Source: Accumulibacter sp. (lineage in GTDB: Bacteria; Pseudomonadota; Gammaproteobacteria; Burkholderiales; Rhodocyclaceae). From it: a stretch of DNA of 32,671 nt. Of this stretch, positions 1,533-28,282 are shown piece by piece (within the stretch, counting starts at the first letter, position 1; the number at the start of each line of letters is the position of its first letter). The stretch is taken from assembly GCA_020049495.1 (NCBI GenBank), contig JAIFKU010000129.1, forward strand, positions 1 to 32,671. The letters are read 5' to 3'. Position numbers and translations under genes: made by a program. The notes under the pieces were generated by a model that saw only the letters and a program-made list of their open reading frames with translations, was not told the DNA's origin and ran no database searches.

Positions 1533-3863
1533 ATGCGCCTCTCAATCCTTGCTTTCGCCTGCGGTATCGCGCTCCTGCAAATACAGAGCGAGTTACCCGC
1601 CATGAGCCTCATGGTCGGGCTGGGGATGCCGGGATTGCTCGGTGTGAGCCTTTGTGTGCGGCGTGTGCATTGGCTGCCGCAAATGATCATGCTCTTTTGC
1701 TGTTCTTTGCTCGGTTTTGTCTGGGCAGGATGGATGGCGCAGCAGCGCCTGGCCGAACAGTTGCCCCTGGCATGGGAGACGAAGGATATTCAGCTCTCCG
1801 GCGTCATCGCCTCGTTGCCACAACGCTTCGAACGCGGCGAGCGTTTCGAGTTCGATGTCGAATCGGTTCAAAGCAAAGGGGCGACCGTACCCGGCCGGAT
1901 CATGCTGGCCTGGTACCACAGTTGGGATGATCTTGGCGATGTCGATGAATTCGTCGAACCGCGGGCGGTTCGTCCGGGTGAGCGCTGGCGTTTTACGGTC
2001 AAACTCAGGCGTCCGCATGGCAACGCCAACCCGCACAGCTTTGATTACGAGGCCTGGTTGCTGGAACGCAACATCCGGGCAACAGGGACGATCCGCCAGC
2101 GCGCTGAAATCGAGCGGCTTGAAACCTTCGTTCCGCGTCCCGGGTATGCGGTGGAACGACTGCGCGATTTCATCCGTAGTCGCTTCGTTTCCGTATTGCC
2201 CGATGCGCCTTACCTTGGCGTGCTGATTGCCTTGACGGTTGGCGATCAAAGGTCAATACCCAATACGCAGTGGCAGGTCTTCAATCGCACGGGTATTACC
2301 CATCTGGTCAGCATTTCCGGGCTTCATGTGACGATGGTCGCGGCGCTGTTTGCAGCCTTGATCAACGGGTTGTGGCGGCGCAGCGAGCGGCTGATGCTGT
2401 TCTTGCCTGCACAGCAGGCTGCGGTTGTGGCGGGCTGGCTGGCCGCCTTTGCCTATTCGCTGCTGGCCGGGTTCGAGGTGCCTGCACAGCGTACCCTGTA
2501 CATGCTGAGCGTTGTTGCATTGGCGCTCTGGTCGGGGCGCAACTTCGGCGTCAGCCGTACACTGCTGCTGGCTTTGCTGGTGGTGCTGGTGCTCGACCCG
2601 TGGGCGGTACTGGCCACCGGCTTCTGGCTCTCCTTTGGTGCCGTGGCCTTGCTCTTCTATGTCAGTACCGCGCGCGTCGGCGAGCAACGCGGATGGCGCG
2701 CTGCACTTGCCCGCTGGGGCGTCACGCAATGGGCGGTAACGGTCGGTAGCCTGCCGCTGTTGCTGCTTTTTTTCCAGCAGTTTTCATTGGTCTCGCCACT
2801 GGCCAATGCGCTGGCGATTCCGTTCGTGAGCTTCATCATTACGCCCCTGGCGCTGGTTTTTGCCGTACTGCCGTGGCCACCCTTGCTGCATCTTGATCAC
2901 TGGCTCATGGCGCAACTGATGGCGCTGCTCGAATGGCTGGCGGGCTGGCCGGTGTGGCAGCAGGCCGCGCCGCCACTGTGGGCGTCGCTGGTGGCTGTGG
3001 TCGGGGTGGTCTGGCTGCTCTTGCCGCGCGGTTTTCCGGCGCGCTGGCTCGGCCTGTGTCTGCTCATGCCAGCACTCGTCTGGCCGCCACCGCGTCCGGA
3101 TCCGGGCGCGGCGTGGGTCGATGTACTCGATGTCGGCCAGGGGCTGGCGGTGCTGGTGCGCACGGCCGGACACACGCTACTGTACGATACCGGCCCACTT
3201 TACAGTACCGAGTCGAACGCCGGCTTACGCGTCGTTGTGCCCTATCTGCGGGCAACGGGCGTCAGTCAACTGGACACGCTGGTGGTTTCGCATCGCGACA
3301 AGGATCATTCCGGAGGGGTGACGGCCGTGCAGGCGTATCTGCCGGTGAGCCGGCTGCTGACCTCGATTCCCGAACTGGGTGGTGAGCCTTGCATCGCGGG
3401 ACAACAGTGGGCATGGGATGGTGTGCGTTTCGCCATCCTGCATCCGGATGCCGCCGATTACGCGCTCAGGTCGAAAAAGACGAATAGCATGAGTTGCGTG
3501 CTGCGCATCAGCAATGCCGGCGGTAGCGTCCTGTTCACCGGAGATATCGAAGCGGCTGACGAGAAGGCTCTGATCGCCCGCTCGCCGGACGTGTTGCGCA
3601 GCACGATGCTGGTCGTTCCGCACCATGGCGGCAATGCTTCGTCGACAGCCGAATTCATCGCTGCCGTCGCTGCGCGCGAGGCAGTTTTCTCTGCGGGTTA
3701 CCGTAATGCCTTTAATCATCCGCGCCCTGATGTGCTCGAACGTTACGCCGCCAGCCGCCAGTGGCGAACGGATCGCGATGGCGCGGTAAGCATTACCATC
3801 GCCGAATCGACCGAAGTTTCGGCGTGGCGAAAGGAACGGCAACGCTACTGGTATGGGCAGTAA
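1533..3863 (+). CDS. comEC: ComEC/Rec2 DNA uptake channel protein
   Basis: A 776-residue polytopic membrane protein with the full ComEC layout: N-terminal membrane helices with an OB-like (DUF4131) region, a central Competence domain with many helices containing THLVSISGLHVTM near residues 255-267, and a C-terminal metallo-beta-lactamase-like domain from about 525. The latter shows DVGQG, DTGP, SHRDKDHSGG (about 585), FTGDIE (about 667) and VPHHGG (about 694). ComEC carries single-stranded DNA across the inner membrane during natural transformation, and the C-terminal domain is proposed to degrade the non-transported strand. The gene stands alone with no competence pilus genes nearby. The ATG at 1533 has no strong ribosome binding site, so the start is less certain than the identity. 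Confidence 0.93.
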   Translation: MRLSILAFACGIALLQIQSELPAMSLMVGLGMPGLLGVSLCVRRVHWLPQMIMLFCCSLLGFVWAGWMAQQRLAEQLPLAWETKDIQLSGVIASLPQRFERGERFEFDVESVQSKGATVPGRIMLAWYHSWDDLGDVDEFVEPRAVRPGERWRFTVKLRRPHGNANPHSFDYEAWLLERNIRATGTIRQRAEIERLETFVPRPGYAVERLRDFIRSRFVSVLPDAPYLGVLIALTVGDQRSIPNTQWQVFNRTGITHLVSISGLHVTMVAALFAALINGLWRRSERLMLFLPAQQAAVVAGWLAAFAYSLLAGFEVPAQRTLYMLSVVALALWSGRNFGVSRTLLLALLVVLVLDPWAVLATGFWLSFGAVALLFYVSTARVGEQRGWRAALARWGVTQWAVTVGSLPLLLLFFQQFSLVSPLANALAIPFVSFIITPLALVFAVLPWPPLLHLDHWLMAQLMALLEWLAGWPVWQQAAPPLWASLVAVVGVVWLLLPRGFPARWLGLCLLMPALVWPPPRPDPGAAWVDVLDVGQGLAVLVRTAGHTLLYDTGPLYSTESNAGLRVVVPYLRATGVSQLDTLVVSHRDKDHSGGVTAVQAYLPVSRLLTSIPELGGEPCIAGQQWAWDGVRFAILHPDAADYALRSKKTNSMSCVLRISNAGGSVLFTGDIEAADEKALIARSPDVLRSTMLVVPHHGGNASSTAEFIAAVAAREAVFSAGYRNAFNHPRPDVLERYAASRQWRTDRDGAVSITIAESTEVSAWRKERQRYWYGQ

Positions 3864-4077
3864 GGCCGGACAGTGATAAGTGCGGACACGGTTTCCAAAC
3901 TGCCTTTTCGTGACACTCGGGCAGAAATTTTCGCCGTTCCCCAAGTGAAATTCCGGCATTGACTGGGGCGCAGAAGACAAGGATACTTTGGCTTGTGCGC
4001 TTGAGATTCCTCATCCTTCGCGCATGCCGTCTTCCAACGCTGTTCGACTGGTCGATTTCTAGGGATTATTTTCCAGC

Positions 4078-5073
4078 ATGAGTATCACGATCAAAGATAT
4101 CGCACGCATTGCCGGAGTCAGTTACTCGACGGTATCGAAGGCGCTGAACGACAGTCCTCTCGTTAAACCAAAAACCAAGGCGCACATCATCGCGGTTGCC
4201 CGTCAGATGGGTTACCAGCCCAATATGGTGGCAAAAAGCCTGGTCTCGAAACGAAGCAATATCATCGGTGTTGTCTGGCCCCGTGTAGAACGCTTTACAT
4301 GGTCTAGCCTGGTCACGGAAGTCAATAACAAACTTACCGCCCATTCCTATAATCTTCTTCTATCGATCAACCCTGTCGAATCAGCAATTGCCGTTTTCAA
4401 TCAGTTCCGGGTCGATGCCATTCTGATCTTCCGCGAATACCTGTTGGATGGCATGAAGGTCAAACCTTCGTCGACTGTTCCGATTCTGCATTACGGAAGC
4501 CCGATTATCCCCAAAACTCCAACCATCAACGTCAATCGCAGGAAAGCCATGTCGTTGGCCGTAGAACACCTGGCCCGACTTGGACATTCACGGATCTCGT
4601 ATATCGGGGATCTTTCGCCAGCGGATCCAACGCAACGGGAAAAAGTAGCTGGCTATAAGGACGCGGCGAATCGATTCCATCTTGCGCAGCACGCCGACAT
4701 TATGATCGATTCAATCGACAATTCGCCGGATTCGGGTTATCTCGTGGGAAAAAAACTGTTGTCTTCGCCCTTCAGGCCTACGGCAATCGTCATCGGCAGT
4801 TACGGGTTAAGCCTTGGGGTTTTCAGGGCACTGAACGAAGAAAAAGTAAGGGTTCCGGACGATTTGTCGATCGTCAGCTACGACAATATTCCGCAGATGG
4901 TTAACTTTGCTGTCCCCTTGACGGTTGTAGGCGCCAGCGTGGAAGCCGTTGCCAACGCCATCGTAGGTGCCTTGATCAATCTGGTGGAATGCGGTGACGG
5001 TGTGGCGGACTACACGGAAATTGATGTTGAACTGGTTGCGCGAAAGTCCTGTGCCTCGCCCAGAGCGGATTGA
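4078..5073 (+). CDS. LacI-family transcriptional regulator
   Basis: A 331-residue protein with a classical LacI-type helix-turn-helix at the extreme N-terminus (ITIKDIARIAGVSYSTVSKA) and the hinge-region pattern GYQPNMVAKSLVSKRSN, followed by a periplasmic-binding-protein-like effector domain ending in ELVARKSC. Such proteins usually repress nearby catabolic operons and release DNA on binding a sugar or sugar acid. The gene is convergent with the six-gene tct operon and its last 64 bp overlap the 3' end of that operon's final gene. A perfect 18-bp palindrome with a central CG, the usual geometry of LacI-family operators, lies at the operon promoter (12366-12383), so I infer that this protein controls that operon. 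The effector is unknown. Confidence 0.92.
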   Translation: MSITIKDIARIAGVSYSTVSKALNDSPLVKPKTKAHIIAVARQMGYQPNMVAKSLVSKRSNIIGVVWPRVERFTWSSLVTEVNNKLTAHSYNLLLSINPVESAIAVFNQFRVDAILIFREYLLDGMKVKPSSTVPILHYGSPIIPKTPTINVNRRKAMSLAVEHLARLGHSRISYIGDLSPADPTQREKVAGYKDAANRFHLAQHADIMIDSIDNSPDSGYLVGKKLLSSPFRPTAIVIGSYGLSLGVFRALNEEKVRVPDDLSIVSYDNIPQMVNFAVPLTVVGASVEAVANAIVGALINLVECGDGVADYTEIDVELVARKSCASPRAD

Positions 5074-6770
5074 GTGATCTTCATGCTGAGGTTGGCGTAG
5101 AGCGCTTTGAGACGATCGGCATCGAGCAGGGTATAGACTCGATGGATGAACGAAGTCTCAACGAATAGCAGTTCAAACCTGTGAATAATCAATTTCAGAT
5201 CCTGCATGCTCACCTGCAAAGTTACTCGTGTTGTTGTCGTGTCGTTTCCTTGTTCCGGGCTCGCATTCTCGATCAGGATTCTGGTCAGGAAGATGCAATG
5301 CGTCGCAATCCGGAACGCCTCAACATAAAGAACAAAGATGTCGAACGACTCGCTCAGGAAGCGAGTGGCCGCCGTGGTTAATCCGCTATTCCCAAGCGCA
5401 ATTGCTTTTGCCAATTGTTTGACAAGAAGAAGAGCGCGATCTTTTTCATCAATGATGCGTCGAAAATTATCAGCGTCTGAACTCAATGCGCTTGCTTTTT
5501 CCGGCAACCACTCTTTCAGGCTGTTTTTTTCTTCGGCCAGCCAGAACGCATGTTCAAGGCTAACCGGTAGATGACTTGAGTCGGAGAATACGCAGTCATT
5601 CACGAAACACGTCTGCTTTACCACCGCCCAGGTCTGATCCAGTATTGAACCCAGCCATTGTGCTGCCGCATCTTTTTCTACTTCGCTGCAATCCTTACGG
5701 AAGTATTCGGACTCTTCCAGCCAGCCTGCATAGATCCCGGTGCTTCCGGAAGACAAGTCATTGGCTAGAGCAGCCCCCGCATGGAGATTGATCTGGTTTA
5801 GCGTATCCCAGGAACTGTGTCCGTCTAGACTCTCCCAATCGACGCGAAACATCACCCCCTTTGCTTTCCTTGCCTTGGCATATTCCATACGGTCGCGAAG
5901 ATCATTGATCATGATGCTGGGTGCAATACCCCAGCCGAAGTATTGACCCCAGACATCAAACTCGATCCACTGATCCCGGTTGCCGACAGCGCCGATGCGC
6001 GCATTGTTCGGGAAGGTGGGGTAATAGTCATGCGGGGTATTCTTCAGAGAGACTCCGATGGACTCAGGAAGTTGCTCCATCGTTGAACTTATCTGATTAT
6101 GAGCTTTTGATGAAAACACGAAATCCCGAATAATCAGTTTCCGTCCTGCGGCGGAGATCGGCTCGTACATGGCCGCAATCAGTTCGCCGTACCAATCTTC
6201 CGGCTTTGTGGCACGGCATCTTTCACAAGTACACCGGTTTGAGGCGATGGATACCCTGCTTTCCCCCGTAGCCAGTGCGCTAATGATTCCACCTGCCTCG
6301 GGAAATTCATCGAAGAACTCCGTGTATTTTGCGCGGGTAAATTCCCACCAGAACGGATCGCTGGCACACACCTTCCCTTCTTTGACCAGATGCGGAAAGA
6401 ACTCAAGAATGATGTCCGGAAAGTACAGTTCCTTGTTTTCGATAAAAACCGTGATGCCGGCTCGACGTGCCTCCTCAAGTACGCGTTTGAAGTAGGCGCG
6501 GCGCTGATACGGTCCGCTTCGGCGTGTCGGCGTAAATTTGTAAAGCGTCCGGAAAATCTCCTGATAACGTTCAAAAATACTGTTGTATTTATCGTTTCGG
6601 CAACCAAAATATTTTCCCGGATAAACGATGAGTTCAAGAAAATCATTGCGGTGCAAAACCAGTGTATTCAACGAATGAGCCTTCATGAACCGGATCGCCT
6701 TGCTGACCCAGTCAAAATTCCATGCGTACTGGCTGTGAATTTCCAGAGCGCGGATGTCAAAGTCGGCCAT
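5010..6770 (-). CDS. Glycoside-hydrolase-like protein of unknown function, paralogue 2
   Basis: I cannot assign a named family. The 586-residue protein is a clear paralogue of the product of 7569-9239: both share an N-terminal (A/G)LE(I/F)HSQ segment, CASDPFWWEF, a C-x-C-x2-C-R motif (here C180, C182, C185), SLKNTPHDYYPTFPNN (241-256), WGQ(Y/F)FG and R-x-DWE (311-313). Alternating strand/helix pattern, a conserved E-x-K-E (111-114) and E-S-R (170-172) resemble TIM-barrel glycosidase-like proteins (alpha-glucuronidase or DUF4838 type), which is an inference. No signal peptide is seen, so it is probably cytoplasmic. The ATG at 6770 is preceded by GGAGAA, 22 bp after the dehydrogenase gene. The C-terminus runs about 15 residues past the paralogue's end, into the oppositely oriented LacI-family gene. 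Confidence 0.75.
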   Translation of the reverse strand: MADFDIRALEIHSQYAWNFDWVSKAIRFMKAHSLNTLVLHRNDFLELIVYPGKYFGCRNDKYNSIFERYQEIFRTLYKFTPTRRSGPYQRRAYFKRVLEEARRAGITVFIENKELYFPDIILEFFPHLVKEGKVCASDPFWWEFTRAKYTEFFDEFPEAGGIISALATGESRVSIASNRCTCERCRATKPEDWYGELIAAMYEPISAAGRKLIIRDFVFSSKAHNQISSTMEQLPESIGVSLKNTPHDYYPTFPNNARIGAVGNRDQWIEFDVWGQYFGWGIAPSIMINDLRDRMEYAKARKAKGVMFRVDWESLDGHSSWDTLNQINLHAGAALANDLSSGSTGIYAGWLEESEYFRKDCSEVEKDAAAQWLGSILDQTWAVVKQTCFVNDCVFSDSSHLPVSLEHAFWLAEEKNSLKEWLPEKASALSSDADNFRRIIDEKDRALLLVKQLAKAIALGNSGLTTAATRFLSESFDIFVLYVEAFRIATHCIFLTRILIENASPEQGNDTTTTRVTLQVSMQDLKLIIHRFELLFVETSFIHRVYTLLDADRLKALYANLSMKITQSALGEAQDFRATSSTSISV

Positions 6771-6792
6771 CAATAATTCTCCGGGTGCCGGG

Positions 6793-7557
6793 TTAAACCG
6801 TTTTTCCGCTATCGATGACAATCACTTCGCCATTGACAAAGTCGGCGGCTGAAGACGCCAGATATACTGCAGCACCGGCATAGTCGGACGGTTGTCCAAG
6901 CCGTTTGAATGGGTGATTGGCGATGACCTGCGCCTTTTTTTCCGGGTGCTGGGCGTAATATTCTGCCGTAAAGTTTGTTTCGCTAGCGGTCGGTGCAATG
7001 GCATTTACGTTGATCCGATACGGCGCCCATTCCAGTGCAAGCGTTTTGACCAGTTGAATCAGCCCGGCCTTGCTGGCGCCGTAGGCCGCATAATTGGCGC
7101 CGCCGCGCAAGCCGCCGGTCGAGGCGATTTGGATCACTTTTCCCTTTCCGTTCTTGATGAATTCCTTGCCGACAATCTGACACAGGAAAAATGCCGACGT
7201 CAGATTGACGCTGAATACGCGATTCCATTCTTCAACTGTCGTCTCAAGCAATGGCTTTCTTACGGTCGTTGCCACGTTGTTCAGCAAAATGTCGATTCGT
7301 CCGAATTCATTGATCACCGTCTGTGTCGCTGTCTCGATGGCGGAGTAATCGGTGATGTCAAGCGTCAGAGCTAACGCCTTTCCCCCTTTGGCGTTGATGT
7401 CATCGGCAAGGGCGCTTGCGCTGGTGGAATTGCAATCGGCAATGGCCAGATGCGCGCCAAACTCGGCCATGGCTCGGGCACAGGCACTTCCAATTCCACC
7501 GGCACCACCCGTAATCAAGGCCACTTGCCCGGTCAAATCAAAGATGTTTTTCGGCAC
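6793..7557 (-). CDS. SDR-family NAD(P)-dependent oxidoreductase
   Basis: A 254-residue classical short-chain dehydrogenase with the nucleotide-binding TGGAGGIG motif near residue 16, LLNNVA in place of the usual NNAG, the catalytic serine in IASTGG and the YxxxK motif in AAYGASKAG. The length and the tail VNGEVIVIDSGKTV fit gluconate 5-dehydrogenase or KduD-like sugar-acid dehydrogenases, but the sequence alone does not fix the substrate. The start is GTG at 7557, with an AAGGA-type ribosome binding site overlapping the stop of the upstream gene (7569), so translation is likely coupled. Lying between two paralogous hydrolase-like genes behind a TctABC transporter, it probably oxidises or reduces an intermediate of the imported compound. 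Confidence 0.9.
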   Translation of the reverse strand: MPKNIFDLTGQVALITGGAGGIGSACARAMAEFGAHLAIADCNSTSASALADDINAKGGKALALTLDITDYSAIETATQTVINEFGRIDILLNNVATTVRKPLLETTVEEWNRVFSVNLTSAFFLCQIVGKEFIKNGKGKVIQIASTGGLRGGANYAAYGASKAGLIQLVKTLALEWAPYRINVNAIAPTASETNFTAEYYAQHPEKKAQVIANHPFKRLGQPSDYAGAAVYLASSAADFVNGEVIVIDSGKTV

Positions 7558-7568
7558 GGTCCTTTTCC

Positions 7569-9239
7569 TTAAGCGGCATTCAGATTGTTCAGATGATTCC
7601 CGATGTCCTGAGCCAGTCCGCGCACGCGTTCATGATCGAGCAGCCATGAAACATGATGTGGATAGTTTTTTCCCTGCACCTTGGTTTCAATGTTTACGGC
7701 ATATTCACGCAGCAAATCCAATGAACCCAAAGCCTTCGTCAGGTCTGAAGCATTACGGGTTTGTTGCGCATGTTTTGCCTCGTAGCAGACCCTGGTACAG
7801 AGATCGAAACCGCGAACGTAGCACTCGAACAATTCCAGAACTTCCAGCAGATCATCTTTCATTCGCTCATCGATACCCAGACGGTCGACATCGAGAAGCG
7901 TTTTCAACTGGCCGACTTTCTCCATGGCTTCCTGTTTTTCACGGAAGATGATGGGGATATTTTCCGCAGTGACTTCAACCAGTTTCGAGGCTCCGGGTCG
8001 CCAATCGTCCATCCCGTGAATTTTTGTCATCATTGAAAAAGCGCGGTCGAGCGTATCGGGGAACATGCAGTCCTCATGAAAGACATGTCCGCGAATGAAT
8101 ATGGATTTCTCGATGACCTCCCACGAAGCCTTCATGAAATCACGCAGTTGGGCATAGCTCTTCTTGTTTGCGACTTGCACCGGCAACTGATCGAACGAGG
8201 CTGGCCTCATCGGATTGAAAAGCCCGTAATCGACCCAGGCCTTGTAGATTGCATCCGCTTCAACTGAAAGATCGGAGGACAGCATGCCTCCGGCAAACAC
8301 GTTAACAAAATTCAAGGAATTGAATGCACACGCCTCGGTCATGTTCTCCCAGTCCGTACGCAGAGTGATCCCGGTAACTCCGTTTTCATGGCAATGGTTC
8401 ATCCGGTATTTCATGTCTTCCACGACACTGGCCGGAAAGAATCCGATGCCGAAGAACTGGCCCCAGGTATCAAATTCCGCCCATTGCGGATGTCTGCCGG
8501 CATGCCCGATCTCCGGGTTGTTCGGGAAAGTCGGGTAGTAATCGTGAGGCGTATTCTTGAGTGAAATGACGATATCGTCCGACACCTTCGTTGCCGCTTT
8601 CATGATGTTGCTTTGTTGCACTGCCGAATACGCAAAATCCCTGACTGCCAGAATTTTTCCCGCCTCATGCAGCGGGCGATACATGGCCTGAAGCAGGCTG
8701 TAGTACCAGTCAAGAGGTGATGTATTCCGGCAGCGTTCGCAGCGGCACGTGTTGGTCGAGATGGAGACCTTGCTTTCCCGCGTACCAGGACTGACCGAGA
8801 TGCCTGTAATGTCAGGAACGGCTTGCAGAAACTCATGTACCTTCTGCTCGACGAATTCCCACCAGAAAGGATCGGAGGCGCAGAGACTTCCATCGGCATT
8901 ACGCAGATGTGGATACAGTTCGATCAGCCATTCGTCGAACCACACCTCCTTCACTTCGGCGACAAAGCCGATTCCCCGTTGTTTGGCCATCCTGACGATA
9001 TTGCGAATGTATTGCCGATTGTTCATCACCCGGTGATAGCGAACCGGCCAGCGTTTCCACATCAATTCCGACGGGAAATACTTGTCCGGCAAAACCACGT
9101 GGTCCAGCAAATCGTTCTGATGAAAAATCAGTGTATTCAGGTTGAGCCGGTTCATTACATCAAGGGCCGTTTCAACCTGTCGTTGTTCCCACATTCTCTG
9201 GCTGTGAAACTCCAGTCCTCTGACGGCAAAGTTCTTCAT
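7569..9239 (-). CDS. Glycoside-hydrolase-like protein of unknown function, paralogue 1
   Basis: A 556-residue protein without an assignable name, paralogous along its whole length to the product of 5010-6770. Conserved blocks are RGLEFHSQ (7-14), N-T-L-I-F-H-Q-N-D, EVKE (95-98), CASDPFWWEF (120-129), RESKVSI, C165/C167/C170 (C-x-C-x2-C), ISLKNTPHDYYPTFPNN (225-241), TWGQFFG and RTDWE (294-298). Conserved acidic residues in EVKE, RES and DWE are candidate catalytic groups if the TIM-barrel glycosidase-like reading is right; the Cys motif resembles those of DUF4838-like proteins and may bind metal. No signal peptide is visible. The start at 9239 begins the homology with the paralogue; upstream in-frame codons to 9335 look non-coding. 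It lies 115 bp behind tctC, the largest gap in this operon. Confidence 0.78.
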   Translation of the reverse strand: MKNFAVRGLEFHSQRMWEQRQVETALDVMNRLNLNTLIFHQNDLLDHVVLPDKYFPSELMWKRWPVRYHRVMNNRQYIRNIVRMAKQRGIGFVAEVKEVWFDEWLIELYPHLRNADGSLCASDPFWWEFVEQKVHEFLQAVPDITGISVSPGTRESKVSISTNTCRCERCRNTSPLDWYYSLLQAMYRPLHEAGKILAVRDFAYSAVQQSNIMKAATKVSDDIVISLKNTPHDYYPTFPNNPEIGHAGRHPQWAEFDTWGQFFGIGFFPASVVEDMKYRMNHCHENGVTGITLRTDWENMTEACAFNSLNFVNVFAGGMLSSDLSVEADAIYKAWVDYGLFNPMRPASFDQLPVQVANKKSYAQLRDFMKASWEVIEKSIFIRGHVFHEDCMFPDTLDRAFSMMTKIHGMDDWRPGASKLVEVTAENIPIIFREKQEAMEKVGQLKTLLDVDRLGIDERMKDDLLEVLELFECYVRGFDLCTRVCYEAKHAQQTRNASDLTKALGSLDLLREYAVNIETKVQGKNYPHHVSWLLDHERVRGLAQDIGNHLNNLNAA

Positions 9240-9354
9240 ACTGCGATCTCGATAATTGTGAATAGTTGATTCGGGCGTAAAAAAACCGCCTTTCGGCTCT
9301 CTCCGGAACCGGCAAGCGCTTGATGACCGGAGCAAAGACGAAGGCGATCTGCGG

Positions 9355-19785: not shown

Positions 19786-22200
19786 TCAGTGCTTGAGTTT
19801 GGCGAAGGCGGAGGCCATTGCACCGGCCGGTTCGGCCTGTCGCGTCTGCTGCTGGCGCGCCTTGTTCGACATCGGCACGCCGCCCATCTTCGGCGCGGCG
19901 GGTGCGTCGTCAGTGAGACGCATGGTGAGCGCAATGCGCTGGCGCGGCAAGTCGACTTCGACGACCTTGACCCTGACCACATCGCCAGCCTTGACGACTT
20001 CGCGCGGATCCTTAACGAATTTGCTGGAAAGCACCGAGATATGGACCAGGCCGTCCTGATGCACGCCGATGTCGACGAAGGCGCCGAAATTGGCCACGTT
20101 GGTGACGACGCCTTCGAGGATCATCCCCGGCTGCAAGTCCTTGACGTCCTCGATGCCGTCCCTGAACACGGCGGTCTTGAACTCGGGGCGCGGGTCGCGG
20201 CCGGGCTTTTCGAGTTCCCTGAGAATGTCCTGAACGGTCGGCAGACCGAATTTGTCATCGATGTATTTGCTCGCTTGCAGCGACTTCGCCAGGCGTGAAT
20301 CGCCGATCACCTCACGGATGCCTTTCTTGATGTCGGCGAGGATGCGCTCGACCAGCGGGTAGGCTTCCGGGTGTACCGACGAGGCATCGAGCGGATTGTC
20401 GCTACCGTTGATGCGCAGGAAGCCGGCCGACTGTTCGAAGGTTTTTTCACCCATGCGCGGGACGTCAAGCAGCGCCTTGCGGTTGGGGAAAGCGCCATGC
20501 TTGTCGCGGTAGCTGACGATATTGGCGGCGAGCGTGCTGTTGAGGCCGGAAACGCGCGTTAGCAACGGTGCCGAAGCGGTATTCACATCGACGCCAACAG
20601 CGTTCACACAGTCTTCAACGACGGCGTCGAGCGCTCGCGCCAGTTTGGTCTGGCTGACGTCGTGCTGGTACTGACCGACGCCGATCGATTTGGGGTCGAT
20701 CTTGACCAGTTCGGCGAGCGGATCCTGCAGGCGGCGGGCTATCGAAACCGCACCGCGCAGGCTGACGTCGAGTTCCGGGAATTCACGCGAGGCGTATTCG
20801 GAGGCCGAATAGACCGAGGCGCCGGCTTCGGAAACGACGATCTTGCTCATGTGCAGATCGGGCACCCTCTTGATCAGGTCGGCGGCCAGCTTGTCGGTTT
20901 CGCGCGAGGCGGTGCCGTTGCCGATGCTGATCAGATCGACATGGTGTTTCTGCGCCAGCAGCGCCAGCGTGTGCAGCGCGCCGTCCCAGTCGCGCCGCGG
21001 TTCGTGCGGGTAGATGGTGGCCGTATCAAGCAGCTTGCCAGTGGCATCAACGACGGCGACCTTGCAGCCGGTGCGGATGCCGGGGTCGAGACCCATGGTG
21101 GTGTGCTGGCCGGCCGGTGCGGCCAGCAGCAGATCGTGCAGGTTGGAGCCGAAAACGCGGATCGCTTCTTCTTCGGCACGCTCGCGCAGGGCGCTCATCA
21201 GGTCGAGTTCAAGGTGCAGGAAGATCTTGATGCGCCAGGTCCAGCGCACGGTGTCGGACAGCCACTTGTCGGCCGGGCGTCCCTGGTCGCTGATTCCGAA
21301 GCGTTTGGCAATGCGACCCTCGCAGGGGTTCGTTACCCTCCCTTGCAGGGCGCATTCCGGCTTGCAAGCCGGAATCGCTCGATTGGCACGGAGCATGCTC
21401 CGTGAATTCCCAATCTCGCCCCCTGACCTCTCTCCCGCGGGGAGAGGGGAGTTTTCCAATTCGCTATCGAGCAGCAGCGCGATTTGCAGCATGCCCTCGT
21501 TGCGTCCGCGCAGCAGCGCCAGCGCCCGGTGCGAAGGAATGGCCTTGATCGGTTCGGAGTAGTCGAAGTAGTCGCGGAACTTGGCGCCGTCGCTTTCCTT
21601 GCCTTCAACGACGCTTGATTTCACGACCCCGTGCGCTTCGAGGTATTCGCGCAGCGCACCGAGGAGTTGTGCGTCTTCGGAGAATTGTTCCATGAGAATC
21701 TGGCGTGCGCCGTCGAGCACGGCCTTGACGTCGGCAAAACCCGCATCGGCGTTGATGAAGCGCTCGGCTTCGCTCTCGGGTTTCAGTGTCGGGTCGCTGT
21801 GCAGGGCTTCGGCGAGCGGCGCCAGACCGGCCTCGCGGGCAATCTGCGCCTTGCTGCGCCGCTTGGGCTTGTACGGCAGATAGAGATCCTCGAGGTTTTG
21901 TTTGGTCTCGGCGTCGTTGATCAGGGCGGCGAGTTCGGGCGTCAGTTTGCCCTGTTCGTTGATCGAGGCCAGGATGGCGGTGCGGCGCTCTTCGAGTTCG
22001 CGCAGGTAGGAGAGGCGTTCGTCGAGCAGGCGCAACTGGATGTCGTCCAGTCCGCCGGTGACTTCCTTGCGGTAGCGGGCGATGAAGGGCACGGTCGCGC
22101 CTTCGTCGAGCAGGGCAACGGCGGCGATGACCTGCTCGCGCCGGGCGCCGATTTCCTCGGCGATTTTCAGGATGATGCGTTGTTCAACAGGAGAGGCCAT
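19786..22200 (-). CDS. tex: Tex, S1 RNA-binding transcription accessory protein, with a 41-residue insertion
   Basis: An 804-residue Tex protein. The N-terminal helical domain ([19 protein letters not shown], then [20 protein letters not shown]) is followed by a YqgF/RuvC-like domain starting at [19 protein letters not shown] (about 367), helix-hairpin-helix motifs around 530-600, and an S1 domain near 690-760 ([20 protein letters not shown]). Tex is a conserved cytoplasmic nucleic-acid-binding factor linked to transcription and toxin expression. Residues 251-291, between SELEN and [12 protein letters not shown], are foreign to the family and are encoded by a palindrome-rich repeat (21328-21450). 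The frame stays open through it, so the protein is probably made. It is the first gene of the tex-arsC-like-hslO group. Confidence 0.93.
21328..21450. repeat. Palindromic repeat element inserted in frame in tex
   Basis: This 123-bp segment interrupts tex without breaking the frame. It contains a perfect 22-bp palindrome at 21354-21375 (arms ATTCCGGCTTG / CAAGCCGGAAT), a perfect 18-bp palindrome CACGGAGCATGCTCCGTG at 21387-21404, and a 7-bp-stem hairpin CTCTCCC-GCG-GGGAGAG at 21430-21446. The last part is the familiar proteobacterial intergenic repeat style that translates as [11 protein letters not shown]. Arm-like CCCTGC/GCAGGG stretches occur at the far end (21317-21350). No transposase gene is present, so it would be a non-autonomous element. 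Boundaries are set by where Tex family homology stops and resumes. Confidence 0.75.
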
Positions 22201-27263: not shown

Positions 27264-28282
27264 TGCCGGGACTGATCGAAGTCATTGATGGCAAAATCGG
27301 CAACAGCATCCAGGACACCGGCCGGCTCGGCTATCGTCATATGGGGATTACCGTATCCGGTTGCCTGGATTCCGTACTCGCCCGTTGTGCCAATGCGCTG
27401 GTCGGGAATCCTCCGGAGTGCGCCTGCATCGAGATCCGGGTGCTCGGTCCGACGCTTCAGGTCAGGCGCGGGCGGGTGCGTGTGGCACTTGCCGGCGACA
27501 TTTCAGCCACGCTGCAGCGTGCGGATGTCCGTCCGCAGCCGATAGAACCTTGGACGAGCATCACGCTCGATGCAGGAGAAACCCTGGAGATCGGTTCAGT
27601 AAAGGGAGGAGCCGCCTATCTGGCGTTGTTCGGCGGGATTGACTCGCTGCTGCAACTGGGCAGCCGCTCGACCTACCAGCGGGCGTTGTTCGGCGGGATT
27701 GATGGACGACCCCTGATGACCGGCAACATGCTGCCCTGCGCAAGCCAGGAGCCGCGCGAGTATCGTGAACACAAGGCCGAGCCGTGGAGCCATGATGAAG
27801 GCGCCATTCGCGTTATGCTTGGGCCGCAGGACGGGCATTTCAAGCCTGAATCCGTCGCCCAGTTTCTCGACTCGCATTATCAGGTGACATCGCAGATGGA
27901 TCGCATGGGCGTGCGTCTGGAAGGCATCCCGCTTGTGCATCTCACACCGGAGGCCGCCGACATTGTTTCGGATGGCGTCACGCCGGGTGCCATCCAGGTG
28001 CCGGGTAACGGCCAGCCGATTGTCCTGCTCGCCGACTGTCAGACCGTGGGCGGCTATCCGAAGATCGCCACGGTGATCAGCGCCGATCTGCCCCGTCTGG
28101 GGCAGTTGAAGCCGGGGCAGAGTATCCGTTTCCGTGCGCTCAGCGCGGCAGAAGCCCATCAGGCACTTCTCGCAAGGGAAGCCCGATGGACTGCCTGGGC
28201 GGGCGGTATCGTTTCCTATATGCCGGATGTCACTTCGCTGTACAACGACCTGACCAGTAACTGGGTTGCTCCCGACTGGTAG
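27260..28282 (+). CDS. pxpC: 5-oxoprolinase subunit PxpC (KipA family)
   Basis: A 340-residue KipA/urea-amidolyase-like protein with NSIQDTGRLGYRHMGITVSG, GGAAYLALFGGID, LGSRSTYQRALFGGIDGRPL, VRVMLGPQ-like IRVMLGPQDGHF, SQMDRMGVRLEGIPL, VTPGAIQVPGNGQPIVLLAD and GGYPKIATVISADL, all typical. It forms the oxoprolinase with PxpB and PxpA. The ATG at 27260 follows AAGGAG and overlaps the pxpB stop. An oddity is an exact 21-bp direct repeat (27622-27642 and 27682-27702) that makes ALFGGID occur twice, 20 residues apart; the second copy replaces the usual GGFGG-x-x-GR-type motif. Confidence 0.92.
   Translation: MMPGLIEVIDGKIGNSIQDTGRLGYRHMGITVSGCLDSVLARCANALVGNPPECACIEIRVLGPTLQVRRGRVRVALAGDISATLQRADVRPQPIEPWTSITLDAGETLEIGSVKGGAAYLALFGGIDSLLQLGSRSTYQRALFGGIDGRPLMTGNMLPCASQEPREYREHKAEPWSHDEGAIRVMLGPQDGHFKPESVAQFLDSHYQVTSQMDRMGVRLEGIPLVHLTPEAADIVSDGVTPGAIQVPGNGQPIVLLADCQTVGGYPKIATVISADLPRLGQLKPGQSIRFRALSAAEAHQALLAREARWTAWAGGIVSYMPDVTSLYNDLTSNWVAPDW

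Follow-up and report, generated by a model that had tools for sequence, protein, structure and literature searches.

Rickettsia palindromic elements are palindromic repeats with a length of ∼150 bp whose insertion into genes preserves the reading frame (PMC10969869). In-frame insertion has likewise been described for REPs tagged with GTAG or CGTC, which are found within proteins of several species, for example, with 43–82 residues in Thauera, and whose hosts include repair genes and tRNA synthetases (PMC3733652). The Thauera cases are at variance with a first-pass annotation of the DNA discussed here, which had considered in-frame elements to be rarely reported in betaproteobacteria. The genes of RAYT transposases are themselves flanked by two inverted REPs (PMC2817692), an arrangement for which the term REPtron is in use (PMC3733652). 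The Vsr-like nucleases of the DUF559 family, which are of the PD-(D/E)XK type, have been studied in a different context. The SOS response of Caulobacter cells without the methyltransferase ScmA depends on the DUF559 protein VsrA, which is discussed as a mismatch repair enzyme, and passages on VsrA in that report make no mention of repeats or mobility (PMC12907096). A description linking DUF559 to hairpin arms, or of DUF559 in frame in the gene MetG, was not found in aimed searches of the open-access PMC literature.

The window analyzed here, a stretch of 32,671 nucleotides from Accumulibacter sp., contains a tex gene with a palindromic repeat in its reading frame. In-frame palindromes are already known, so the Tex insert joins a known kind and, taken alone, is one more betaproteobacterial case of a known phenomenon. 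It resembles the Rickettsia elements in being palindromic and in frame, a likeness in kind; the host group differs, and the family of its left hairpin also flanks nuclease genes. With the tagged REPs it shares that a hairpin repeat lies in frame in a protein, a betaproteobacterium included (PMC3733652). In contrast to these REPs, it is associated with a different enzyme, and the ends of its core, CTCCCC and GGG(A/T)AACG, carry no GTAG or CGTC tag by eye, a reading that concerns the core of the longer element described below. The earlier reading of this locus had not connected the left hairpin with hairpins that bracket nuclease genes.

The palindromic repeat in the tex gene

The tex gene occupies positions 19786–22200 on the minus strand and was identified by its reading frame, by Pfam and by a structure–sequence match. 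Its frame of 804 amino acids is intact and contains the Tex_N, central, YqgF, HHH, and S1 domains in the Pfam scan. Residues 250–290 (positions 21331–21453, minus strand) constitute an in-frame insert of exactly 41 residues, flanked by SELE and NPCEGRIA, at a place where the loop of most congeners has ∼8 EANKPVGH-like residues instead. As these usual residues are replaced, either the insertion was not clean or the site was remodelled later. The first-pass annotation had recognized the insert and had placed it three bases off, at 21328–21450. It had also called the 41 residues foreign to the Tex family, and in fact they are absent from the 99 other rows of an alignment of 100 Tex sequences. The alignment to the Pseudomonas Tex structure 2oce consists of two stretches, query 20–247 on chain 22–249 and query 290–803 on chain 254–775. 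It breaks at the insert, so that 2oce has four residues where the Tex protein of the window has more than 40. The insert contains no gene, and no intein or Hint domain was detected in Tex (Pfam, E ≤ 0.001).

The 100 rows comprise the window, 19 sequences from a genome search and 80 named loci; the pairs L010/L103 and L016/L102 look like duplicate records. Measured from GRNEG to PCE, the loop has 20–28 residues in 95 rows and 32–36 in four (L010/L103, apparently one record, 36; L144, 34; L027, 32), and only in the window does it reach 58. The loop is variable in length over these rows (20–58 residues), as had been claimed; the surface position claimed along with it is putative and suggested by this length variation and by the gap against the solved Tex structure. 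In the 28 genomes of the genus the tex matches break at the insert site wherever both halves were found, with the exception of genome G024, whose Tex has a different and shorter extension at this site.

The strand from 21320 to 21460 folds with –67.7 kcal/mol as compared to –52.7 ± 4.5 kcal/mol for shuffled sequences (z –3.4). On the minus strand the insert has a left hairpin of the SPLP type, CTCTCCC-CGC-GGGAGAG (21430–21446), a member of the hairpin family that also supplies the arms of DUF559 cassettes (see below), and a double hairpin recognized by palindrome search and by folding. The first hairpin of the latter, GATTGG...CGGAGCATGCTCCG...CCAATC (21381–21415, minus strand), contains a perfect 18-mer palindrome at 21387–21404, and the second is a perfect 22-mer palindrome, ATTCCGGCTTGCAAGCCGGAAT (21354–21375, minus strand). 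In spite of these palindromes the 123 bp remain open, as had been pointed out before: four of the six frames, among them the coding frame, are free of stop codons. For the covariance model, which was derived from 11 copies, the effective number of sequences is 1.31 and the covariation term is unfavourable; with such a weakly informative model we make no claim of a selected RNA structure. An Rfam search of four loci (L001, L039, L040, L043) gave a single sub-threshold match lying off the element.

A core of 124 nt (21331–21454, minus strand) is common to ten copies in the congener G007 and to eight copies found in the genus g19. Using a 146-base query, BLAST detected the G007 copies with 81–91% identity (E ≤ 1e-6; three of the ten matches span 88–102 bases only) and at the same threshold no copy in the other 26 congeners. 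All ten G007 copies match the whole 124-position covariance model, and this model additionally gave weaker relatives in G006, G009, G015, and G018 as well as one extra weak match in G007. When a 281-base G007 query was compared with 297 genomes of the family, relatives spanning the double hairpin were found in five g19 genomes (eight matches) and in the window; as at most two candidates were scored per genome, the copy numbers are lower bounds. The aligned copies of g19 and G007 form a longer element of which Tex retains the central 124 nt without the outer parts, and the outer blocks common to the longer copies include GTGAAAGTCGC and ACTTTCAT. Several G007 copies are crossed by long open frames. 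Three of these frames (L039, L041, L045) gave no Pfam match, so the G007 open-frame copies were not counted as in-frame. Separately, the frame of a group II intron maturase in G006 (L050, 1501–1624) matches the element model with 54 bits next to the RT/maturase domain boundary and is possibly a further in-frame insert.

The source genome is a draft in 178 contigs that is 85% complete, and a search of it with the insert, as the first-pass annotation had envisaged, yielded no second full-length copy. Besides the Tex copy, the BLAST matches in this genome measure 19–36 nt only, and the longer G007 query gave one 61-nt piece. The covariance model gave four weak matches, in which the left hairpin and the outer blocks are present and the double hairpin is absent. 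The lack of another copy in the genome had been named beforehand as speaking against a mobile repeat, and formally half of this applies: full copies occur in G007 and in the genus g19, and none was found in the own genome. Nevertheless, the insert DNA is a dispersed palindromic repeat in frame, and it is like the Rickettsia elements in kind, as proposed before, being palindromic (fold z –3.4), dispersed (ten G007 copies), in frame and absent from orthologues. We regard its identity as a repeat element as very probable. The word domesticated, which had been applied to it, implies a function, and nothing in our analysis shows one.

The age of the insertion had been expected to follow from an alignment of Tex sequences, and the alignment does confine the full insert to the window. 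The loop of the G007 Tex (L027) contains ENSPLPTVGGAGARAV, and the tex DNA of G007 and of the window share TGGAAAACTCCCCTCT, where uninserted relatives differ. The shorter loop of G007 is thus probably a remnant of the insert, and the simplest reading of these sequences is one old insertion that was shortened afterwards in G007. Alternatively, the site may have received insertions twice, or a transfer may have taken place. The identity of window and G007 Tex is 86% at the protein level and 83.6% at the DNA level outside the insert, and the Tex of L014, which has no insert, is nearer to the window by identity (90%) than that of G007. Resolution in the Tex protein tree is poor; the window and G007 are not sisters in it, and a sister grouping is not rejected (AU p = 0.23). 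The same loop carries a different in-frame hairpin repeat (CCCCCCTTTGAAAAAGGGGGG; NPPQPPFEKGG) in the ∼65% identical Tex of an uncultured Pseudomonadota bacterium (L144).

DUF559 genes between inverted hairpin arms

Hairpins like the left one of the insert are found repeatedly in the own genome, which contains 15 perfect palindromes of the form CCTCTCCC-N-GGGAGAGG, not counting the slightly different Tex copy. Two of them, in inverted orientation, flank a DUF559 domain that lies within the MetG linker. In this locus (L279, contig C129 of the own genome, ORF 2207–4714) MetG and DUF559 share one open frame of 836 amino acids, and the cassette precedes the tRNA-binding domain. The left hairpin of the Tex insert is 89% identical to an arm of this MetG cassette over 36–37 nt. 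Another hairpin of the SPLP type lies in frame in a GDP-mannose dehydratase gene of the own genome (L071, 621–1778), at a place where Gmd of E. coli has another loop. The 12 other palindromes are located between ORFs, at ORF ends, or within other ORFs. A MetG match was obtained in 25 congeners. In 22 of these, both halves are on one contig with no more than 72 nt between them and DUF559 is absent; the linker was unreadable in G001, G007, and G009.

The arrangement in MetG recurs at DUF559 genes of the family, for which a set of 80 loci was assembled, 14 of them from the genus of the window. SPLP hairpins within 130 nt of DUF559 are found on both sides in 24 of the 80 loci and on one side in nine. 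When only loci with enough flank are considered, 24 of 75 have the hairpins on both sides as compared to none of 431 shifted positions. For an arm test without a fixed motif, the 130 nt to the left were aligned locally with the reverse complement of the 130 nt to the right, and a locus passed if its score exceeded the maximum of the shifted controls, which was 31 (431 controls for the family, 352 for the phylum). The test was passed by 54 of 77 family loci (L232, L240, and L251 have flanks too short for a score) and by 55 of 89 loci of the phylum outside the family; in the genus alone the figure is 5 of 14. Few control ORFs reach the passing score, namely 2 of 421 in Tex loci and 2 of 215 that neighbour DUF559 in the family loci, so the arms are not simply a property of gene ends. 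Against these control ORFs the Fisher p values are 9.8e-38 for the family set and 1.9e-47 for the phylum set and are indicative only, as related loci are not independent. Stems of at least eight on both sides occur in 45 of 89 phylum loci, 2 of 352 controls and 36 of 80 family loci. The arm sequences vary by locus (for example, CTCCCTCCCCTTCAAGGGGAGGGCTGGGGTGGGGATGGG), and in many of them a G-rich tail comes after the hairpin.

Four DUF559 rows above 75 bits lie outside the family set of 80 (G010:C82, G024:C126, G082:C345, G110:C246). The first two (L090, L098), both from the genus of the window, have arm scores of 12 and 14 and fail the test, so that with them the family count would be 54 of 79. 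The phylum set is formed by the best 89 rows among the matches listed, down to ∼119 bits, without G046 and G000, which belong to the family set, and without G439:C10:208137, G462:C29, G459:C26, and G538:C4. Seven of the 89 translate with stops under the assumed strand and were kept because the arm test is identical on either strand.

Of 21 DUF559 ORFs that were read, ten were scanned against Pfam. Eight domains of the family set are in frame in host genes: MetG in three cases, PrmC, AsnB, HsdM, and two methyltransferases. Host domains were found on both sides of DUF559 in the three MetG proteins (L275, L277, L279), in PrmC (L221), in AsnB (L235, with the amidotransferase domain in two stretches), and in the MmeI-type methyltransferase (L228). 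For HsdM (L278) and the Eco57I-type methyltransferase (L249) they were found on one side. L250 and L217, the other two of the ten, do not belong to this group. The arm test is passed by seven of the eight hosts, PrmC failing with a score of 18. All three MetG proteins, each from a different genus, have the insertion in the same linker; L275 and L277 have similar arms, and those of the genome of the window differ. Homing endonucleases in inteins are nucleases in frame within conserved proteins, and in this respect the DUF559 inserts are similar to them. They differ in that no Hint or intein splicing domain is found in the eight host ORFs (Pfam, E ≤ 1e-5) and in being mostly flanked by DNA hairpins. 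With the RAYT genes and their REPs (PMC2817692; PMC3733652) the DUF559 cassettes have in common that the gene of an enzyme lies between inverted hairpin repeats with solo repeats elsewhere; here, however, the enzyme is a nuclease instead of an HUH transposase, and some copies are in frame in host genes.

Origin and spread of the Tex insert

A link between the Tex insert and the cassettes is given by three of the 80 family loci that match the covariance model of the Tex composite (L248, L231, L239). L248 has a left arm, ending 51 nt ahead of DUF559, in which the double hairpin stands between the hairpin and the tail, as in the architecture of the Tex insert, and its right arm is plain. L239 has three matches at distances of 0.2–0.6 kb, and the phylum set gave one weak match in 89 loci. 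The small number of such matches speaks against the explanation given next. We suggest that the Tex insert is a solo mobile palindromic element, a composite of a DUF559-arm hairpin and a double hairpin, and consider this probable and, as a whole, the best explanation of the locus. In such a composite the CTCCC...GGGAG hairpin of the family bracketing DUF559 would be followed by the double hairpin. The element would have landed in a turn of the central region of Tex, where it now replaces ∼8 usual loop residues, and it may have been retained because the frame remained open and the loop tolerates added length. Lacking a DUF559 gene, the insert is at most a non-autonomous relative of the hairpin-bracketed cassettes.

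How such elements spread might be explained by the nuclease. DUF559 would cut DNA and repair would copy the segment flanked by hairpins into the cut, in cis for the cassettes and in trans for the solo arms, and the in-frame copies would be what selection leaves. The class of mobile elements proposed here consists of a nuclease gene between inverted hairpin arms, the solo arms being repeats of the SPLPAGER type. Generalized in this way, the proposal is that the Vsr-like DUF559 nucleases across Pseudomonadota are the engines of widespread, undescribed mobile elements whose arms spread solo and whose copies settle in frame within loops and linkers of important host proteins, which we put forward tentatively, as a conjecture with somewhat less than even prospects. 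For the Tex copy itself, spread driven by the nuclease is doubtful. G007 has ten copies of the repeat and yet no DUF559 match in a genome that is 99% complete, and within the genus the presence of strict hairpins and of DUF559 is unrelated (7/7/7/7 genomes, p = 1). The nuclease could have disappeared, could work from another location, or could play no part. These two observations keep our confidence in the engine low, while that in the identity of the element is high. Also counted against the explanation are the arm test in the genus of the window (5 of 14 loci, with both genus loci outside the set failing), the failure of PrmC in this test, the Tex tree, and the lack of the outer parts in the Tex copy. 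Movement of an element of the Tex type was not observed in this analysis, which relied on a draft assembly. If the proposal is true, host proteins gain from DUF559 elements either a nuclease domain, as in MetG, AsnB, HsdM, and others, or a peptide, as in Tex and Gmd. A nuclease acting as the engine would be a candidate source of movement for common GC-rich hairpin repeats, and an example of a mobile nuclease that lodges in conserved proteins and is not spliced out of them.

The Tex repeat might instead be an ordinary palindrome of the REP or RPE type, moved by a tyrosine transposase (HUH, RAYT) and unrelated to DUF559. In-frame REPs are known, Thauera included (PMC3733652), and four Y1_Tnp matches each were found in G000 and G007; the latter genome, with its multiple copies of the element, combines these matches with a lack of DUF559. 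In a scan of the eight Y1_Tnp loci with seven motifs, however, the motifs of the Tex-type element were absent, unlike what is known of the tagged REPs, apart from one 8-mer in two loci; three of the eight loci lie at contig ends, so that one flank is mostly unseen. The missing end tags and the enrichment of the arm family at DUF559 genes also argue against a transposase of this type, and we consider this explanation a serious minority option. It is rather improbable that the repeat is a MITE, that is, a longer element with outer blocks belonging to a transposon still to be found, of which Tex kept the core. The outer blocks shared by the longer g19 and G007 copies would fit, but the Tex copy does not have them and a target duplication is not established.

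Two further explanations deny the insertion of a mobile element into tex. An assembler could have joined a repeat into the gene, as the source assembly is a draft in many contigs. Such a chimera is highly improbable: the same left junction occurs in the Tex of another congener's assembly, the frame is open, both halves of Tex are intact, and to either side of the insert the contig continues for 11 kb or more. An adaptive extension of the Tex loop that resembles the repeat by chance only has nothing but its retention in its favour; at 81–91% DNA identity with dispersed copies outside tex its probability is close to nil. Thus, the reading of the Tex insert as a solo composite of a DUF559-arm hairpin and a double hairpin remains the one we prefer.

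Other repeats in the window

On the minus strand the window has two ORFs of 603 and 588 amino acids (5010–6821 and 7569–9335) that share repeated DNA with a spacing of 2.5 kb. They gave no Pfam match at E ≤ 1e-8 and are probably tandem paralogues. Within a carboxyltransferase-like ORF an exact direct repeat of 21 nt is found at 27622–27642 and 27682–27702, 60 nt from start to start.
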